In this document: piece after piece, positions 14,455 through 34,630 of the stretch
Numbering within the stretch: position 1 is the first letter of the stretch
Layout: each line of letters opens with the position of its first letter
Origin: Clostridia bacterium
GTDB taxonomy: Bacteria; Bacillota; Clostridia; Oscillospirales; CAG-272
DNA length: 34,630 nucleotides
Direction: 5' to 3'
NCBI GenBank assembly: GCA_017522795.1
Contig: JAFWXZ010000070.1
Span: forward strand, 70,202 to 104,831
The notes under the pieces: generated by a model
Told to the model about the DNA's origin: nothing
Database searches by the model: none
Seen by the model: the letters and a program-made list of their open reading frames with translations, nothing else
Made by a program: the position numbers and the translations under genes

Positions 14455-14531
14455 GGCGGATTAGCTCAGTTGGCTAGAGCGTCCGGTTCATACCCGGCAG
14501 GTCGTTGGTTCAAATCCGACATCCGCTACCA
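14455..14531 (+). tRNA. tRNA-Met (CAT anticodon)
   Basis: 77 nt with CCA encoded. Acceptor GGCGGAT / ATCCGCT, D-stem GCTC/GAGC, anticodon loop TTCATAC, T-arm GTTGG-TTCAAAT-CCGAC. The CAT anticodon also occurs in tRNA-Ile2 modified by TilS. The acceptor starts G-U, unlike the mismatched first pair of initiator tRNA, so elongator Met or Ile2 is more likely. Confidence 0.93.
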
Positions 14532-14537
14532 CACCTC

Positions 14538-14612
14538 GGCCCGTTGGTCAAGCGGTTAAGACACGGCCCTTTCACGGCTGTAACATGGGTTCGATTCCCG
14601 TACGGGTCACCA
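14538..14612 (+). tRNA. tRNA-Glu (TTC anticodon)
   Basis: 75 nt with CCA encoded. Acceptor GGCCCGT / ACGGGTC, D-arm GTCA...GACA, anticodon loop TTTCACG, T-arm GGG-TTCGATT-CCC. It starts 6 nt after tRNA-Met, in the same transcript. Its T-arm sequence recurs in split form in the region that follows (see findings). Confidence 0.94.
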
Positions 14613-14621
14613 AACCCGAGA

Positions 14622-14653
14622 AAGCACCACGAAAAGTGGTGCTTTTTCTTTTT
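14622..14653 (+). terminator. Terminator of the tRNA pair
   Basis: Stem AAGCACCAC / GTGGTGCTT (14622-14630 and 14636-14644), then TTTCTTTTTC. An outer inverted repeat AAACCCGAG / CTCGGGTTT (14612-14620 and 14655-14663) encloses it. Confidence 0.9.
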
Positions 14654-14699
14654 CTCGGGTTTGGCGACCCGTATGTCTCGAACCCACTCGCGCACGCAA

Positions 14700-14970
14700 A
14701 GTCAAGCATTTCATAGCTATGAATTGCTTATTTTACAACTCATCACCTGCGCGAATCGGGTTCGAAACATTGCTCCGCCGCTTCCGTGTCGGAAGCCTTG
14801 CAGGGCGGAGCAAATTCCCGTACGTGCGACTCCGTCGGGATCGACCCACCCTGAAAATCTGCGATTTTCAGGATATGGGTTCGCATTTGCCGCTCGGAGA
14901 TCGGCAAGCTTGTTTGCCAGGCGTAGAGCGAGCAAATATTCGCCCCAGCGAAATTCCCGTACAAATGGCA
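14700..14970. repeat. Stem-loop array beside tRNA-Glu
   Basis: This gene-free stretch is almost wholly palindromic. Hairpins: 14704-14729 (AAGCA-T-TTCATAG with its mirror); 14770-14813 (TTGCTCCGCC / GGCGGAGCAA enclosing GCTTCCG-TGT-CGGAAGC); 14851-14872 (CTGAAAATC-TGC-GATTTTCAG); 14885-14937 (ATTTGC / GCAAAT with inner CGCTC / GAGCG); 14939-14951 (ATTCGC-CCCA-GCGAAAT). GGGTTCG at 14758 and 14878 and ATTCCCGTAC at 14814 and about 14953 are the two halves of the tRNA-Glu T-arm, here separated by hairpins. No convincing reading frame. Confidence 0.8.
14824..14886 (+). repeat. 63-nt direct repeat, copy 1
   Basis: Identical over 63 nt to 15729-15791. It begins GTGCGACTCCGTCGGGATC, holds a 9-bp hairpin with loop TGC, and ends ATATGGGTTCGCAT. 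The similarity continues more loosely to 14962. Confidence 0.95.
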
Positions 14971-28114: not shown

Positions 28115-28565
28115 GTAAAAATCGGCTAAAAAAGTCGTTCGCTCCCACTCGCAGTAGTTTTCTACAGCTTCGGGTCGCGAACGGCTTTTTTATCTCAATT
28201 TTTCCTACTCTAAAACCCGTGCTGTTTTACAAGTGGCTATTTTTCCTCGTTTTTTCCTATCTCAAAAGCGGGCATTTGAAACGTAAAATCGGCTAAAAGT
28301 CGTTCGCTCCCACTCGCCTATTTAAGCCTTCCCTGTTGGGGTAGCGAAGCGTCTCCGAGGTATTGAATTACAGTCCGGTGGACTGTCAGACCCGAGGAGT
28401 GACCGAGCCGCAGCGAGACGGGGGACCACCTTTGGTGGTGGATGAGGTGCTTCGGGTCGCGAGCGGCTTTTTTATCTCAATTTTTCCTACTCTAAAACCG
28501 CAAGGGTTCCTTGTGATCGGCGATTTTTCCTCGTTTTTTCCTATCTCAAAAGCGCGCCTTGAATG
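28115..28565. repeat. Duplicated terminator unit with a 145-nt insert
   Basis: Two tandem units, 28115-28282 and 28283-28565. Both start GTAAAA(A)TCGGCTAAAA, continue GTCGTTCGCTCCCACTCGC, then CTTCGGGTCGCGA(A/G)CGGC with TTTTTTATCTC, and end TTTTTCCTCGTTTTTTCC. In unit 2 the terminator loop is replaced by about 145 nt (28318-28448) that is GC-rich and has its own hairpins (CAGTCC-GGT-GGACTG, ACCACC-TTT-GGTGGT). No gene is seen; frame 28363-28644 crosses the hairpins and is not supported. Confidence 0.8.
28127..28192 (+). terminator. Terminator of the acyl ligase gene
   Basis: Stem AAGTCGTTCGC / GCGAACGGCTT (28132-28142 and 28177-28187) with flanking A and T runs and one G-U pair, closing a 34-nt loop with inner GTAG-TTTT-CTAC; then TTTTTATC. 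Its stem recurs at 28298 and 28460 (next entry). Confidence 0.85.
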
Positions 28566-28824: not shown

Positions 28825-30201
28825 ATGTTAAACAAAAACCGACACACAAATCTGCTTGAGCAGTCGCAGTACAAATACTCGCTGCAGGACGTTGACGAGC
28901 CCAATCTCTATCGGGAGATATATCCTTACGACGAGATACCAAAGGTTGCCTTCAACCACCGCCGCGTGCCCCTCTGTATGCCTGAGGAAATATGGATAAC
29001 CGACACCACCTTCCGTGACGGACAGCAATCCCGCGCGCCCTATACAGCCGATCAGATCGTGGATCTTTATAAAATGCTTCACCGTCTTGGCGGACCGAAG
29101 GGTATTATTCGTCAGTCGGAGTTCTTTGTATATACGAAAAAGGACAGAGAGGCGCTGCTGCGCTGTATGGATCTCGGATATAGATTCCCCGAGGTCACCA
29201 CTTGGATCAGGGCAAAGAAAGAGGACTTTATGCTTGTTCGCGATCTGGGTATAAAAGAAACGGGAATCCTGGTTTCCTGCTCGGATTACCATATATTTAA
29301 GAAGCTGGGGCTTTCGCGCGGCGAGGCTCTCGACCATTATCTTGGCGTTGTAAAGCGCGCATTTGACGCAGGCATTCGCCCGAGATGTCATCTCGAGGAT
29401 ATCACGCGCGCCGATTTTTACGGTTTCGTAGTTCCTTTTGTAAACGCTCTGCACGATTTGTCCGACGAGGCAGGCATTCCCGTGAAGATCAGAATGTGCG
29501 ATACCTTAGGCTATGGCGTTTCCTATCCGGGTGTTGCCCTGCCGAGAAGCGTGCCCGGAATCGTCTACGGCTTGCACCATTACGCCGACGTTTCCTCGGA
29601 TATGCTTGAATGGCACGGACACAACGACTTTTACCACGGTGTCACAAACGCGGTCAACGCCTGGCTTTACGGAGCGTCGGGTGTAAACTGCTCGTTGCTC
29701 GGCATAGGTGAGAGAACGGGCAATATTCCTACCGAGGCTATGGTTATGGAGTATGCCGCAATACGCGGTACTACCGACGGAATGGACACCACCGTTATCA
29801 CCGAGATCGCCGAGTACTTTAAAAACGAGCTCGGTTATAATATCCCCCCTATGACTCCCTTCGTAGGCTCTGCGTTTAATCTCACCCGCGCGGGTATTCA
29901 CGCCGACGGAATTATGAAGGACACCGAGATATATAACATTTTTGACACCGATAAAATACTTAATCGCTCTGCCGAGGTAGCTATCTCCAACACCTCCGGC
30001 ACGGCGGGCATAGCTTATTGGATAAACAAGCATCTCGGTCTTGAGGGAGATGAGGCTTTTACAAAGCAGTCTCCTCTCGTAATAGCCGTCAAGGATGAGA
30101 TAGACAGTCTTTACGAGGACGGCAGAACCACCTTAATGGGAAATGACGAGCTGTTTGAAATTATAGACCGCCTTTCCGAGAAAAATAAGGAGAAAAAGTA
30201 A
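28825..30201 (+). CDS. (Re)-citrate synthase, isopropylmalate/homocitrate synthase family
   Basis: 458 residues. The HMGL-like TIM barrel is shown by ITDTTFRDGQQSRAPY near residue 60 (metal and acyl-CoA site), RCHLEDITRADFYGF, KIRMCDTLGYG and EWHGHNDFYHGVTNAVNAW (two metal-binding His). The leucine-sensing domain of LeuA (IPMS) is absent, and the last 100 residues differ. Members of this family in clostridia such as C. kluyveri make citrate from acetyl-CoA and oxaloacetate with Re-face stereochemistry; in C. acetobutylicum the same gene is followed by aconitase and isocitrate dehydrogenase. The same order here, with no ordinary citrate synthase visible, makes that call much better than homocitrate or isopropylmalate synthase. 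First gene of the operon. Confidence 0.85.
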   Translation: MLNKNRHTNLLEQSQYKYSLQDVDEPNLYREIYPYDEIPKVAFNHRRVPLCMPEEIWITDTTFRDGQQSRAPYTADQIVDLYKMLHRLGGPKGIIRQSEFFVYTKKDREALLRCMDLGYRFPEVTTWIRAKKEDFMLVRDLGIKETGILVSCSDYHIFKKLGLSRGEALDHYLGVVKRAFDAGIRPRCHLEDITRADFYGFVVPFVNALHDLSDEAGIPVKIRMCDTLGYGVSYPGVALPRSVPGIVYGLHHYADVSSDMLEWHGHNDFYHGVTNAVNAWLYGASGVNCSLLGIGERTGNIPTEAMVMEYAAIRGTTDGMDTTVITEIAEYFKNELGYNIPPMTPFVGSAFNLTRAGIHADGIMKDTEIYNIFDTDKILNRSAEVAISNTSGTAGIAYWINKHLGLEGDEAFTKQSPLVIAVKDEIDSLYEDGRTTLMGNDELFEIIDRLSEKNKEKK

Positions 30202-30861
30202 ATGATAGTTGACAAAAATTCAAAATCTCTTGAGGAAAACGTTTTCTTAACCTTAGAGGACGAGATTTTATCGGGAAAGCTGAAACGTGGGGAAATTCTC
30301 ACCGAGACAACTCTTTCGTCAAGACTCGGAGTCAGCAGAACGCCTCTTCGCGGTGCGCTGCATCGTCTTTTTGAGGAGGGGCTTATCGATATCACCCCCA
30401 ATCGCAGCGCGGTGGTTGTGGGAATCGGGCGCGAGGAGTTGGTCGATATTTATAAAATGAGAATACGACTTGAGGGGCTTGCCTCTGCCGAGGCTGCCGG
30501 GAGAATTAGCGATGCCGATAAAAAAAGGCTTTCGGAAATCGTAGAGCTGTGCGATTTTTATATCGGAAAGCGTGACGCCGAGAAGCTAAAGGAGCTTGAC
30601 TCCGAGTTCCACGGCATAATTTACAGAGCATCGGGCAACCGTCTGCTGAACAAGACTCTCTCGGAGCTTCACAGAAATATTCATTTTTACAGAAAACGCT
30701 CGCTTGCGGTGGCGGATAGACTTGAAAGATCTGCCGAGGAGCATAAGCAGATACTTTCCGCCATAGAGCGCGGCGATGCCAAATTGGCAGACAGACTCAC
30801 CTCGGCTCACGTTGAGGCGGCGCTGAATAACCTGCTTACCGTCAGCGATATAGAGAATTAA
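30202..30861 (+). CDS. GntR family transcriptional regulator, FCD subfamily
   Basis: 219 residues. The N-terminal winged helix is ILSGKLKRGEILTETTLSSRLGVSRTPLRGALHRL, with the recognition helix at SRTPLRGAL. The C-terminal FCD ligand domain shows YKMRIRLEGLASAEA, DSEFHGIIYRASGN and EEHKQILSAIERGD, in which the Asp and the three His residues bind a metal and a carboxylate ligand. TAAATG: the ATG touches the citrate synthase stop, and AAGGAG lies 11 nt before it. The ligand could be an operon metabolite such as citrate or 2-oxoglutarate (inference). Its likely site is the tandem TTGTATACAA motif near the promoter, so it should regulate its own operon. Confidence 0.92.
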   Translation: MIVDKNSKSLEENVFLTLEDEILSGKLKRGEILTETTLSSRLGVSRTPLRGALHRLFEEGLIDITPNRSAVVVGIGREELVDIYKMRIRLEGLASAEAAGRISDADKKRLSEIVELCDFYIGKRDAEKLKELDSEFHGIIYRASGNRLLNKTLSELHRNIHFYRKRSLAVADRLERSAEEHKQILSAIERGDAKLADRLTSAHVEAALNNLLTVSDIEN

Positions 30862-30865
30862 TAAT

Positions 30866-32797
30866 ATGGGATACACAATAGTACAGAAAATAATTAAAAG
30901 CCACCTTGTCAGCGGAGAAATGACGGCGGGCAGTGAGATCGCCCTGCGTATTGACCAGACCTTGACTCAGGATGCCACGGGTACGATGGCTTATCTTCAG
31001 CTTGAGGCTATGGAGATAGAGCGAGTAAGGACCGAGCTTTCGGTGGCGTATATAGATCACAATACATTGCAGTCGGGCTTTGAGAATGCCGACGATCACC
31101 GATACATACAAACGGTGGCAAAAAAGCACGGCGTGCGCTTCTCCCGTCCCGGAAACGGAATTTGCCATCAAGTTCATCTTGAGCGCTTTGGCGTGCCGGG
31201 GAAAACCCTTATCGGCTCGGACAGCCATACTCCCACCGCGGGAGGCATTGGTATGCTCGGTATGGGCGCGGGAGGTCTCGACGTGGCGGTGGCTATGGGC
31301 GGCGGCGCTTATTATATCACTATGCCGAGGGTTATCAAAATCAACCTTACAGGCAGACTCCCAGACTATGTATCGGCAAAGGATGTTATTCTTGAGGTTT
31401 TGCGTCTGCTTGGTGTCAAGGGAGGTGTCGGCGCGGTTATTGAGTACGTAGGCGAGGGAGTTAAGACTCTCACCGTACCGCAGCGCGCTACTATTACCAA
31501 TATGGGCGCAGAGCTCGGAGCTACAAGCTCTATCTTCCCCTCGGACGAGCTGACGCTCGCATTTATGAAGGCGCAGGGAAGGGAGTCTGATTTTACCGAG
31601 CTTTATCCCGATGCCGACGCGGTATACGATTCGGAATATACTATTGATCTCTCGTCACTTATGCCCCTTGCTGCCTGTCCTCACAGCCCCGATAACGTTA
31701 GGTCGGTGGAGAGCCTTTCTGGAATGAAGATCGATCAGGTCTGTATCGGATCTTGCACAAATTCATCTCTGTCCGATATGCTCACCGTTGCGGCGATGTT
31801 AAAAGGAAAAACCGTTCATCCCGACGTTTCACTCTCCATCTCTCCGGGCTCAAAGCAGGTTTATACTATGCTTGCCGAGTGCGGAGCTCTTGCAGATCTT
31901 ATTGCGGCAGGCGCGAGAATTCTTGAGTGCGCTTGCGGTCCCTGTATTGGAATGGGTTTTTCGCCCAAATCTGCGGGTGTCAGCCTGCGTACCTTTAACC
32001 GCAACTTCCTCGCTCGCTCGGGCACCGCAGATGCAAGCGTGTATCTTGTTTCACCCGAAACGGCTGCAGCCTCTGCCATAGCAGGCGTCTTTACCGATCC
32101 GACTACCCTCGGAGCAGCTCCGAGCATTTCCTTACCCGATAAATTTACCGTTAACGATAATCTTATCGAGCTTCCCGCATCTGTCGACGAGGCGAAAAAT
32201 ATAACCGTAGAGCGCGGTCCGAACATCAAGCCTATTCCTAAGGGAAAGGCGCCCGACAGAGATCTTGATTGTGAGCTGATCTTAAAGGTGGGCGACAATA
32301 TTACCACCGATCACATTATGCCCGCGGGCGCAAAGATTCTGCCCTATCGCTCCAACGTTCCAAAGCTCTCGGAGTTCTGCTTTACCGTCTGTGATAAGGA
32401 CTTTCCGAGGCGCGCATTGGCAGCGGGTGGCGGAGTGATCCTCGGCGGTCATAACTACGGTCAGGGCTCCTCTCGCGAGCATGCGGCTCTCGTTCCTCTT
32501 TATCTTGGCGTGAAGGCGGTGATTGCCAAGAGCTTTGCCCGTATCCACGTGGCAAATCTTATTAATTTCGGAATTGTTCCTATGACTCTTGCCTATGAAA
32601 AGGATTACGATCGTATATCCGAGGGCGCAAAAATATCTATAAGCGGATTTTATAATGCGGTAAAGAGTGAGAGCGTGGCATACTTGACAGTAGACGGCTT
32701 GAATGAAAAAATACCGCTTAACCTTAATCTTACATCAAGGCAAAGAGATATACTTCTTGCCGGAGGAATGTTGAATTACACCAAAAATGCAAAGTGA
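30866..32797 (+). CDS. acn: Aconitate hydratase
   Basis: 643 residues, the short form common in clostridia. The three Fe-S cysteines are in CIGSCTNSS and ECACGPCIG. Other motifs: HQVHLERFGVPGKTLIGSDSHTPTAGG, GAGGLDVAVAMGGGAYY, and the C-terminal swivel domain with DNITTDHIMPAG, GGHNYGQGSSREHAALVP and FARIHVANLINFGIVPM. It isomerises citrate to isocitrate through cis-aconitate. It starts 4 nt after the GntR stop. Homoaconitase and isopropylmalate isomerase are relatives, but they usually have separate subunits or different flanking genes; the next gene supports aconitase. Confidence 0.93.
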   Translation: MGYTIVQKIIKSHLVSGEMTAGSEIALRIDQTLTQDATGTMAYLQLEAMEIERVRTELSVAYIDHNTLQSGFENADDHRYIQTVAKKHGVRFSRPGNGICHQVHLERFGVPGKTLIGSDSHTPTAGGIGMLGMGAGGLDVAVAMGGGAYYITMPRVIKINLTGRLPDYVSAKDVILEVLRLLGVKGGVGAVIEYVGEGVKTLTVPQRATITNMGAELGATSSIFPSDELTLAFMKAQGRESDFTELYPDADAVYDSEYTIDLSSLMPLAACPHSPDNVRSVESLSGMKIDQVCIGSCTNSSLSDMLTVAAMLKGKTVHPDVSLSISPGSKQVYTMLAECGALADLIAAGARILECACGPCIGMGFSPKSAGVSLRTFNRNFLARSGTADASVYLVSPETAAASAIAGVFTDPTTLGAAPSISLPDKFTVNDNLIELPASVDEAKNITVERGPNIKPIPKGKAPDRDLDCELILKVGDNITTDHIMPAGAKILPYRSNVPKLSEFCFTVCDKDFPRRALAAGGGVILGGHNYGQGSSREHAALVPLYLGVKAVIAKSFARIHVANLINFGIVPMTLAYEKDYDRISEGAKISISGFYNAVKSESVAYLTVDGLNEKIPLNLNLTSRQRDILLAGGMLNYTKNAK

Positions 32798-32808
32798 GGT
32801 TTACAAAA

Positions 32809-33978
32809 ATGATTGATTATAATATAAATCTTGACGAGGCTTGCCTGAAGTTCAGAAAAATTCTTGAAAAGCAGCTTGAGCGTGTTGAGGATATGAAGGC
32901 GCAGGGGGACTTTACCGACTATGCCTCACTTGATACGATAAAGATCGGTGTCTGCGGCGGAGACGGCATCGGACCCATCATCACCAAAGAGGCTGCGCGA
33001 GTGCTTGAATTCATTCTCTCCGATCTCGTAGAGTGCGGCAAGGTGGAGTTCAGACAGATCGAGGGGCTTACCATTGAAAACCGTATTGCCAAGGGCAAGG
33101 CTATTCCCGATGAGGTTATGGCAGAGCTTAAGGCTTGCGACGTAATACTGAAGGGCCCCACGACCACTCCCCAGAAGGGTGACGGAATGCCAAATATCGA
33201 GTCGGCAAACGTCGCTATGCGAAAGGCACTTGATCTTTTTGCCAATATCCGTCCCGTAAAAGTGCCCGAGGAGGGTATAAACTGGTGCATATTCCGTGAA
33301 AATACCGAGGGTGGATACGCGGTTGGTTCGTCGGGCTTTAACGTGACAGATGATCTGGCGGTGGACTTTACAGTCACCACCAAGCAGGGCTCTGACAGAA
33401 TTGCACGCATAGCCTACGATTACGCGAGAAAGAACGGACGCACCCGTGTTTCGTTGGTTACAAAAGCAAATATTATTAAGACCACCGACGGTAATTTCCT
33501 TGAGGATTGCCACAAGGTAGCCGCTCTCTATCCCGAAATAACCACTGACGAGTGGTATGCCGACATTATGACGGCAAAGCTGGTGGATAAAAAGCGTCGC
33601 GCCGATTTCCAGATACTTCTTTTACCTAACCTCTATGGCGATATCATCTCCGATGAGGCGGCTGAGTTCCAGGGCGGTGTCGGTACTGCCGGATGCGCCA
33701 ATATCGGTAAAAAATACGCTATGTTTGAGGCGATTCACGGCTCAGCTCCCAGAATGGTAAAGGAGGGTCGAGATATTTACGCCGATCCATGCTCAATGCT
33801 ACGCGCCTGCGTGATGCTACTCTCCCACATCGGCTATCAGGACCGCGCCGACCGTCTTGAGCGCGCGCTCGACATTTGCACCTTCGAGGAAAAGAAGCTT
33901 ATTATAACCGGACGTGACACAGGTGCAACCTGTCGCCAGTTCGGCGATTACGTAATGGAAACGCTGAAGGGACTGTAA
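32809..33978 (+). CDS. icd: Isocitrate dehydrogenase
   Basis: 389 residues from ATG 32809, with GAGG 8 nt upstream, overlapping no codon of acn except the preceding stop region; a GTG at 32794 is unlikely. Motifs of the beta-decarboxylating dehydrogenases: GGDGIGPII, NIESANVAMRKALDLFANIRPVK (substrate loop with Ser and Arg), FRENTEGGY, KANIIKTTDGNF, the Asp pair in LLLPNLYGDIISDEAAEF, and the nucleotide loop EAIHGSAPRMVKEGRDIYADP. Isocitrate is converted to 2-oxoglutarate and CO2. NAD or NADP use cannot be settled by eye; the loop lacks the Lys-Tyr pair of E. coli NADP-IDH. 3-isopropylmalate dehydrogenase is a relative, but the operon context favours IDH. Last gene of the operon. Confidence 0.9.
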   Translation: MIDYNINLDEACLKFRKILEKQLERVEDMKAQGDFTDYASLDTIKIGVCGGDGIGPIITKEAARVLEFILSDLVECGKVEFRQIEGLTIENRIAKGKAIPDEVMAELKACDVILKGPTTTPQKGDGMPNIESANVAMRKALDLFANIRPVKVPEEGINWCIFRENTEGGYAVGSSGFNVTDDLAVDFTVTTKQGSDRIARIAYDYARKNGRTRVSLVTKANIIKTTDGNFLEDCHKVAALYPEITTDEWYADIMTAKLVDKKRRADFQILLLPNLYGDIISDEAAEFQGGVGTAGCANIGKKYAMFEAIHGSAPRMVKEGRDIYADPCSMLRACVMLLSHIGYQDRADRLERALDICTFEEKKLIITGRDTGATCRQFGDYVMETLKGL

Positions 33979-33986
33979 AAACAAAA

Positions 33987-34007
33987 AGCAGACCGTGGGG
34001 GTCTGCT
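33987..34007 (-). terminator. Hairpin at the icd end, terminator for leftward transcripts
   Basis: Stem AGCAGACC / GGTCTGCT, loop GTGGG. The A-rich side (33979-33987) becomes a U tract only on the minus strand, so it would stop transcription coming from the tRNA-Gly side. Near-identical hairpins stand at 34198-34218 and 34541-34561. Confidence 0.7.
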
Positions 34008-34020
34008 GAAGTATTCATAG

Positions 34021-34529
34021 CGGCTTTAATTTATGAAGGAGCGGATTACGCTGAGTATTTTCGTTTTGGTACGAAAATACTCGCAGAGTTTGCTTGCGCA
34101 AACGTCACGCACAAATCGCTTTGTTGCGATTTGTTGCTTGGGGCTAATCGTCGCTTTGGTGCGACGAAAGCCCCAAAAAGTAGGTTCCAAAACAAAAAGC
34201 AGACCGCAAGGGTCTGCTGAAGTATTCATATTGGCTTTAATTTATGAAGGAGCGGATTACGCTGCGTTGTTTCGCTTTGGTGCGAAACAACACGTACAAT
34301 TTTGCAAAGCAAAATTGAGGGCTTCGCGCCGTTTTGGTACGGCGCAGCCCCGTCCGTCCAAAAGAAAAACCGTACCACTTTGGGTACGGTTTATAGCGGC
34401 TCAAACTTTAGAAGGAGCGGATTACGCTGCGTTGTTTCGCTTTGGTGCGAAACAACACGTACAATTTTGCAGAGCAAAATTGAGGGCTTCGCGCCGTTTT
34501 GGTACGGCGCAGCTCCGTAAGGTTGGGTT
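34021..34529. repeat. Stem-loop array carrying repeated tRNA-Gly 3' ends
   Basis: Three units starting near 34021, 34231 and 34397. Each has GGAGCGGATTACG (34038-34050, 34249-34261, 34414-34426), equal to the last 13 nt of the tRNA-Gly at 34571-34583, then hairpins. Stems with a TTTGGT loop: GTATTTTCGT (34055-34080), TCGTCGC (34148-34167), GTTGTTTCGC (34266-34291), GCGCCGT (34326-34345); a TTTGTT variant with stem ACAAATCGC is at 34111-34134. Others: GTTTGC-TTGC-GCAAAC (34088-34103) and CAATTTTGC-AAA-GCAAAATTG (34297-34317). Unit 3 repeats unit 2 almost exactly. Terminator-like hairpins end units 1 and 2 (34198-34218; AACCGTACC / GGTACGGTT at 34368-34391). No gene seen. Confidence 0.85.
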
Positions 34530-34572
34530 CCAAAACAAAAAGCAGACCACGAGGGTCTGCTTTTTGTTTTGG
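34530..34572 (-). terminator. Terminator of tRNA-Gly
   Basis: Perfect 19-bp stem CCAAAACAAAAAGCAGACC and its complement with loop ACGAG. The right arm includes the CCA complement of the tRNA; the A-rich left arm is a U tract on the minus-strand RNA. Confidence 0.88.
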
Positions 34573-34630
34573 AGCGGATTACGGGGCTCGAACCCGCCAC
34601 CTCCACCTTGGCAAGGTGGCGCTCTACCAA
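34570..34630 (-). tRNA. tRNA-Gly (GCC anticodon), 5' end outside window
   Basis: On the minus strand: the end of the D-arm (TTGGTAGAGC), anticodon stem CCACC / GGTGG around loop TTGCCAA (anticodon GCC), T-arm GGCGG-GTTCGAG-CCCCG and acceptor strand ending ATCCGC-T-CCA. About 14 nt of the 5' side are cut by the window edge. Confidence 0.93.

Follow-up and report, generated by a model that had tools for sequence, protein, structure and literature searches.

Tandem hairpin units ending in copies of a tRNA-Gly 3' end in a Clostridia bacterium: candidates for small elements that insert at tRNA genes

Genomic islands that integrate into tRNA genes displace a 3' fragment of the tRNA they target, and their crossovers fall in the anticodon loop, in the T-loop or at the junction of the T and acceptor stems, according to the account that accompanies the Islander set (PMC4383910). 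In Dehalococcoides, tandem arrays of islands are bounded by 20-bp copies of the ssrA 3' end, for which T-loop insertion was inferred; as characterized there, these islands use only the tmRNA gene, carry genes and include a serine recombinase module (PMC3146451). Gene-bearing islands are accordingly known to show displaced tRNA 3' ends, tandem arrays and crossovers in the T-loop (PMC4383910, PMC3146451). Short extragenic hairpins are known separately as REP elements, which together with BIMEs are repeated, non-coding and linked to the TnpA-REP transposase (RAYT), as outlined in PMC6006769.

Here we describe hairpin units at the end of a 34,630-nt stretch of DNA (the window), which is the final 34.6 kb of a 104.8-kb contig in a genome bin of 1.65 Mb and 78% completeness. 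The last gene of the window (32794-33978) belongs to the isocitrate/isopropylmalate dehydrogenase family, scoring below the curated cut-offs of single models, and about 590 bp of non-coding DNA separate it from a tRNA-Gly(GCC) gene on the opposite strand. By its sequence, this block consists of three small non-coding hairpin units in tandem, and each unit closes with a direct copy of part of the 3' half of the neighbouring tRNA. Our preferred reading, with somewhat less than even confidence, is that the units are elements which would insert at tRNA genes, the predicted cut lying in the T-arm. From the sequence comparisons, a so far undescribed type of small element that inserts at tRNA genes is likely, as is the copying of its ends from the target tRNA. 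No description of gene-free units with inverted and direct copies of the neighbouring tRNA appeared among the titles and abstracts that searches of an open-access library listed.

The units share with the Islander islands a tRNA gene as target, a displaced 3' fragment of that tRNA downstream in the same orientation, and the T-loop or T/acceptor class of crossover (PMC4383910). They differ in also holding an inverted tRNA piece, in that one core serves 22 tRNA species, and in size, since the gap of 72-175 nt between tRNA and direct copy in the listed units of a related kind (type II, see below) has no room for an integrase gene. Such units are probably absent from the Islander set, because candidates are tested there for an integrase gene (PMC4383910). 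Like REP elements they are short, repeated, extragenic, non-coding hairpins (PMC6006769). Unlike those, they are connected with tRNA 3' ends through their copied arms, and no clear association with a Y1 transposase is seen in the genus. MITEs are short and non-coding, with terminal inverted repeats and a direct target duplication; the inverted ends of the present units are target sequence rather than the element's own, with arms that follow the adjacent tRNA, and the duplicated stretch, at a fixed position in the tRNA, often reaches or exceeds ~20 nt. Casposons insert at tRNA 3' ends with direct target duplication, but the present units are too short for cas1 or polymerase cargo. Integron attC cassettes combine a fixed frame with a variable folded stem, whereas the present units are without genes.

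The tRNA-Gly array and its hairpin loops

On the minus strand, tRNA-Gly (61 nt present, identical to an intact relative) is followed by a 20-bp terminator-like palindrome and by three units of hairpins A, B and C (Table 1). Every unit closes with CGTAATCCGCTCC, corresponding to C63-C75 of tRNA-Gly, and then with another terminator-like hairpin; three such minus-strand hairpins were found, compared with a mean of 1.3 in shuffles. The 13-mer GGAGCGGATTACG occurs at 34038, 34249 and 34414, in addition to 34571 inside the tRNA, so the original prediction that the units contain 13 nt of the adjacent tRNA-Gly and mostly carry terminator hairpins is borne out. Units 1 and 2 are tandem copies with 92% identity, and the stems of unit 3 differ. 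An inverted tRNA piece spans 10 nt in unit 1, 8 nt in unit 2 and a faint 6 nt in unit 3. The suggestion that hairpins had replaced the tRNA body is not fully accurate, since a direct piece of the 3' half is retained, together with an inverted piece in units 1 and 2 and a faint one in unit 3. The direct copies begin at C63, near the T/acceptor junction and not in the T-loop, and the window's own units are less regular than type II units, in which the frame (a direct copy on one side, an inverted copy on the other) appears most clearly.

Table 1. Features of the tRNA-Gly block and of a second tRNA locus in the window
Feature	Coordinates	Strand	Remarks
tRNA-Gly(GCC) 3' part	34570..34630	-	Rfam tRNA 36.5 bits, cut at 5'; 5' end lost at contig end
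20-bp perfect palindrome, terminator-like in both directions	34529..34573	.	arm takes in the tRNA's own TCCA
Unit 1 inverted piece of tRNA 3' half, AGCTCCGTAA	34511..34520	+	9/10 to A58-A67; from sequence
Unit 1 hairpin A	34491..34510	.	stem GCGCCGT, loop TTTGGT
Unit 1 hairpin B	34462..34482	.	CAATTTTGC.AGA.GCAAAATTG
Unit 1 hairpin C	34431..34456	.	stem GTTGTTTCGC, loop TTTGGT
Unit 1 direct copy of tRNA-Gly C63-C75, CGTAATCCGCTCC	34414..34426	-	
Unit 2 terminator-like hairpin	34367..34392	-	hairpin scan
Unit 2 inverted piece of tRNA 3' half, AGCCCCGT, 8 nt	34346..34353	+	from sequence
Unit 2 hairpin A	34326..34345	.	loop TTTGGT
Unit 2 hairpin B	34297..34317	.	
Unit 2 hairpin C	34266..34291	.	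loop TTTGGT
Unit 2 direct copy of tRNA-Gly C63-C75	34249..34261	-	
Unit 3 terminator-like hairpin	34198..34218	-	hairpin scan
Unit 3 hairpin A'	34148..34167	.	stem TCGTCGC, loop TTTGGT, within GGGGCT/AGCCCC
Unit 3 hairpin B'	34112..34133	.	CAAATCGC.TTTGTT.GCGATTTG
Unit 3 extra hairpin	34088..34103	.	GTTTGC.TTGC.GCAAAC
Unit 3 hairpin C'	34053..34082	.	12-bp stem, loop TTTGGT
Unit 3 direct copy of tRNA-Gly C63-C75	34038..34050	-	
Last terminator-like hairpin, adjoining the dehydrogenase stop codon	33987..34007	-	hairpin scan
tRNA-Glu(TTC), second locus	14538..14612	+	
Inverted piece of tRNA-Glu 3' half, imperfect	14662..14685	+	from sequence
Direct copy of tRNA-Glu 3' part, ATTCCCGTACG	14814..14824	+	offset 201 after tRNA
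Second direct copy, ATTCCCGTAC	14953..14962	+	offset 340

TTTGGT closes perfect stems at 34065 (12 bp), 34155 (7 bp), 34276 (10 bp), 34333 (7 bp), 34441 (10 bp) and 34498 (7 bp), within a span of 34053-34510. That different stems close this one loop had been claimed and is confirmed, with four distinct stems in the six hairpins because units 1 and 2 are tandem copies. The accompanying claim that both sides of the stems change together stands in part: the four stems are real, but they occupy two unit positions (A and C), each offering only two variants for comparison within this genome. Six TTTGGT hairpins are far beyond chance. The window has 26 hairpins with a 6-nt loop and at least 7 perfect bp (both strands), 12 of which carry TTTGGT or its complement, whereas 20 Markov-1 simulated windows (one strand) gave a mean of 2.3 such hairpins and never two sharing one loop. 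Elsewhere in the window, TTTGGT forms the loop of a single stem of at least 5 bp (28431, 5 bp).

The loop is nevertheless a local feature, and the general phenomenon is the tRNA part. In the window's genome the 12-mer CGYTTTGGTRCG occurs 6 times, always inside the block (reversed control, 0); 196 family genomes, the window's included, hold 229 occurrences compared with 369 of the reversed control, so it is the rarer of the two. TTTGGT was rejected as a general signal on these counts, which, together with the other loops of other units, also tell against a protein that reads the loop, as had been proposed. In G216, whose dehydrogenase is 94% identical (locus L083), hairpins with ACCAAA loops follow the same tRNA-Gly beside the same dehydrogenase gene and are intermixed with an unrelated unit, and in other genomes quite different hairpins stand at the corresponding place. 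The idea of a hairpin-swapping element comes close to this picture, in that the tRNA frame is constant while the hairpin core differs between genomes.

The named relatives of the dehydrogenase gene come from bins titled Clostridia, Clostridiales, Oscillospiraceae or similar, many of them from ruminant hindgut. Only L083 (RGIG4006), which has the same array as G216:C76, carries a tRNA-Gly near this gene among 80 named relatives (flanks of at most 3 kb, some contigs being shorter), and conserved synteny of the array with the dehydrogenase gene was rejected. Within the window, genes for an isopropylmalate/homocitrate-synthase-like protein, an aconitase and the isocitrate-type dehydrogenase lie almost consecutively at 28825-33978. 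At L087, the 3' side of the dehydrogenase gene holds hairpins linked by a constant GTGAAGTT. Contigs end at or near tRNA units in G000:C76, G207:C31, G223:C36 and G216:C17, suggesting that these repeats break assemblies.

Copies of tRNA 3' ends and the type II core in related genomes

A copy of the tRNA's own 3' end (11 nt or more out of its final 24, no farther than 500 nt downstream) lies behind 7 of 23 tRNAs of the window's genome, compared with 2 of 431 tests with foreign tRNAs (other amino acids) and 0 of 23 upstream; the 23 are those that ARAGORN finds in the fetched loci and that have 100 nt or more free downstream (Rfam matches 27). Loci chosen by type II gave 48/76 own copies, against 11/1520 foreign and 0/76 upstream. 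At tRNA-Gly loci of the genus the counts were 17/69, with 0/69 upstream and 24/779 for other tRNAs, where neighbouring tRNA units occupy the same stretch. A first and more biased set of 105 distinct tRNA genes, partly chosen through tRNA-Gly matches, included 27 with at least 11 nt of their own last 25 nt repeated within 1.4 kb downstream (32 copies); its controls gave 1 upstream, 2 for the gene's first 25 nt, 0 for its middle and 10 for inverted matches downstream. About a quarter to a third of the sampled tRNA genes in the genus repeat their own 3' end downstream. In other families of the class (26 loci), a copy follows 3 of 87 tRNAs, with 1 of 87 upstream, and all three, at L311, L313 and L315, have the same layout, so the phenomenon is not confined to the family, yet is rarer outside it. 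A second locus within the window (14455-14962) consists of tRNA-Met and tRNA-Glu, a terminator-like palindrome, an inverted tRNA-Glu piece, hairpins and two direct copies (Table 1).

The type II core is a 99-nt sequence from behind the tRNA-Gly of G278. Within the genus it matches 106 times, in 34 of 70 genomes, and a close version (E 1e-6) is present in 73 of 246 family genomes, spread over 33 of 71 genera; copy numbers in the latter search are lower bounds, with at most three candidates per genome scored for most genomes. Across the class it was found in 8 of 291 genomes, the window's among them. The fetched loci contain 100 distinct copies, of which 70 follow a tRNA on the same strand at a distance of at most 400 nt (24 tRNA species); for the other 30, the contig extends upstream by less than 400 nt in 14 cases and by 400 nt or more in 16. 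Some of the tRNA-distant copies occupy other hairpin frames. One is the core hairpin at 28359-28413 in the window, away from any tRNA, which lies within another palindromic frame and between two repeats, GTCGTTCGCTCCCACTCGC and a longer one ending TTTTTTATCTCAATTTTTCCTACTCTAAAACC (region 28320-28460). A further modular hairpin family stands behind tRNA-Gly in L065 and L052, where differing hairpins form arrays with a constant ATATCATC or GATGAAATC linker. Searches for the type II core on plasmids and phages (blastn, distant mode) and in IMG/VR (one exact 23-mer pattern) gave no match, and thus nothing to suggest that other mobile elements carry it.

Sites are filled or empty among related genomes. 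The Val-Asp spacer, in 26 distinct sequences, measures 23-60 nt in 16 and 91-202 nt in 10, and the long spacers include several unrelated cores within one frame. Asp-Gly spacers (17) are short in 8 (13-28 nt), filled in 7 (116-174 nt) and have a left end only in 2; all 8 Asp-Phe spacers are of 7-28 nt. In the Asp-Gly spacers of L055, L057 and L062, type II left ends (CGCTCGAACAGAG or GGCTCGAACAGAG) stand without core or right copy, and these remnants could possibly be deletion or excision scars.

The usual type II layout is an inverted copy of the neighbouring tRNA 3' half to the left and a direct copy to the right, with both junctions in the T-loop, and arrangements of the same kind stand behind 22 kinds of tRNA gene in relatives, usually with the neighbouring tRNA's own end. 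The junctions were counted for the 60 cores that lie no more than 140 nt from a tRNA (22 species), using tRNAs whose last 24 nt begin with TTC. An inverted arm of at least 7 nt, which repeats the T-arm or the entire 3' half of the neighbouring tRNA as its reverse complement, is present in 52 units and ends at T54 in 48 of these; a direct copy of at least 9 nt is present in 53, starting at T55 (23) or C56 (19) in 42 of them, and 13 copies comprise the full 22 nt of T55-A76. Both an arm of at least 7 nt and a copy of at least 11 nt occur in 45 of the 60, while 15 are without one or the other. The left arm reads TTGAA in 13/13 units behind TTCAA tRNAs, and TCGAA in 43/47 and TTGAA in 0/47 behind TTCGA tRNAs, so that agreement between arm and tRNA extends at least from position 57; because T54-C56 are invariant in tRNAs, the junction itself is fixed only to T54-G57. 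With these junctions and the own-tRNA counts above, the originally noted link to tRNA 3' ends proves real and general.

Each of the 22 tRNA species has a direct copy of at least 11 nt in at least one unit, and many direct copies end in CCA. The match continues beyond A76 for at least 4 nt in 15 of 32 copies (7.1% of shuffled pairs) and for at least 6 nt in 9 of 32 (1.8%). The terminator palindrome extends into the tRNA or the inverted tRNA piece at several loci, and at some the flanking terminator is duplicated together with the tRNA end. Of the 100 type II copies, 76 were long enough to extract, and 48 of these (few gaps, identical rows once) entered the tests of nearest neighbours and stem changes. 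Nearest neighbours by the core alone were in the same genome for 14.8 of 48 copies (shuffled mean 2.6, maximum 9.8), and the isotype was shared with the nearest neighbour for 9.8 of 43, which is within the shuffles (mean 4.1, maximum 10.8).

A possible insertion route and its alternatives

The frame, the match to the neighbouring tRNA, the type II T-loop junctions, the tandem copies and the filled and empty sites can be read directly from the sequences. A route by which insertion might produce them would begin with a cut in the T-loop, between T54 and T55/C56, by a nuclease or recombinase acting in trans. From T54, the free 3' end would be extended through the remaining tRNA and the terminator, and the extended strand would fold back on the terminator hairpin and copy itself to T54, giving the inverted arm. 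Joining of the hairpin core to the old T55-A76 strand would then give the direct copy. The tRNA would stay whole and retain a terminator, and hairpin cores could be exchanged or kept perfect via template switching. Such a cut, extension, fold-back and rejoining would yield every part of a type II unit, duplicated terminators included. Points against it include the 30 of 100 type II copies with no tRNA inside 400 nt, the 17 of 32 copies with a match of less than 4 nt past A76, the 15 of 60 units that miss an arm or a copy, a junction resolved only to T54-G57, the tendency of nearest neighbours to share the isotype, although within the shuffles, the G-T excess of the hairpin survey described below, and the C63 start and lower regularity of the window's own units. 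As for the enzyme, a Y1 transposase (PF01797) was considered and not found in the bin of the window's genome; genomes with type II have it in 12 of 34 cases and the others in 6 of 36 (counted by eye, many bins being incomplete), which is no clear association. Tyrosine recombinases, present in 63 of 70 genus genomes, are too common to be informative.

These recombinases would nonetheless suit the main rival, in which the units are minimal site-specific cassettes, gene-free tiny islands whose attachment site carries a tRNA 3' end, and a tyrosine or serine recombinase in trans joins them at the T-loop or the T/acceptor junction, leaving the displaced 3' end as the direct copy. The displaced fragments and crossover positions described for known tRNA islands (PMC4383910), the Dehalococcoides arrays as presented in PMC3146451 and the C63 start of the window's copies all accord with it. 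A T-loop crossover accounts for the direct copy, but the tRNA-matching inverted arm lies outside the model, a donor-supplied end does not explain one core with the ends of 22 tRNA species, and the match past A76 in 15 of 32 copies fits copying from the target better; we regard cassettes as unlikely.

The stems bear on two further alternatives. Type II stems show two-sided changes at 8 of 11 pairs, and their cells comprise 508 Watson-Crick pairs, 7 G-T, 5 A-C and 8 other. Without any mobile element, tandem duplication of tRNA 3' ends and replication template switching at palindromes could make hairpins and inverted arms and keep them perfect, in which case the two-sided changes need no selection on structure. 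It has been proposed that a single template-switching event can generate a hairpin or compensatory changes at several bases (PMC8794818), and the near-perfect pairing of the stems and the terminators duplicated with tRNA ends agree with this. A core that accompanies 24 tRNA species and occurs in 33 of 71 family genera requires spread and not only local duplication, however, and the sharp T54 junction is unexpected, which makes a purely local origin rather unlikely.

Alternatively, the hairpins may be functional RNA, read through from the tRNA and serving as decoys or sponges for tRNA-processing enzymes. The units do stand in sense orientation behind tRNAs, with CCA at the end of many copies, and folding of the minus strand is strong (z -17.9 on 20 shuffles). 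Among 274 non-terminator hairpins behind tRNAs, read on the tRNA-sense strand, 42 G-T compare with 14 A-C and 2755 Watson-Crick pairs; some strand bias exists in this survey, and its G-T excess points the opposite way from the type II stems, toward RNA-level selection. Those stems are nearly without G-T, whereas tRNA acceptor stems (98 genes) have 51 G-T and 2 A-C. RNAalifold gives type II similar energies on either strand (-11.4 and -10.3), which favours neither. A terminator-like hairpin stands between tRNA and core in 44 of 60 type II cores, presence varies between relatives, a simple sigma-70 scan of 33900-34630 found no promoter-like site, and Rfam searches of the window and of 11 loci gave no family other than tRNA at gathering score. 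The decoys raised in the original prediction are thus not well supported, since type II stems have few G-U steps and most cores lie behind a terminator-like hairpin, and we consider this explanation improbable. On balance, a DNA-level origin of the covariation, e.g. by template switching as put forward in PMC8794818, is favoured over selected RNA.

If insertion with copying from the target tRNA is right, these units provide a natural case in which covariation of stems, commonly read as proof that an RNA is functional, arises by DNA copying. Island searches that demand an integrase gene would miss such units, and the repeats seem to cause assembly breaks at the tRNA loci concerned. A single T-loop cut would give the element many tRNA genes without harm, unlike islands bound to one target. 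In its broadest and more doubtful form, which we think somewhat unlikely on the present comparisons, this gut Clostridia family would harbour a new class of mobile DNA, namely gene-free hairpin elements for which the universal T-loop is a single target in all tRNA genes, with both ends copied from the target (one inverted by terminator fold-back, one direct), a tRNA that always survives, and any hairpin as cargo.
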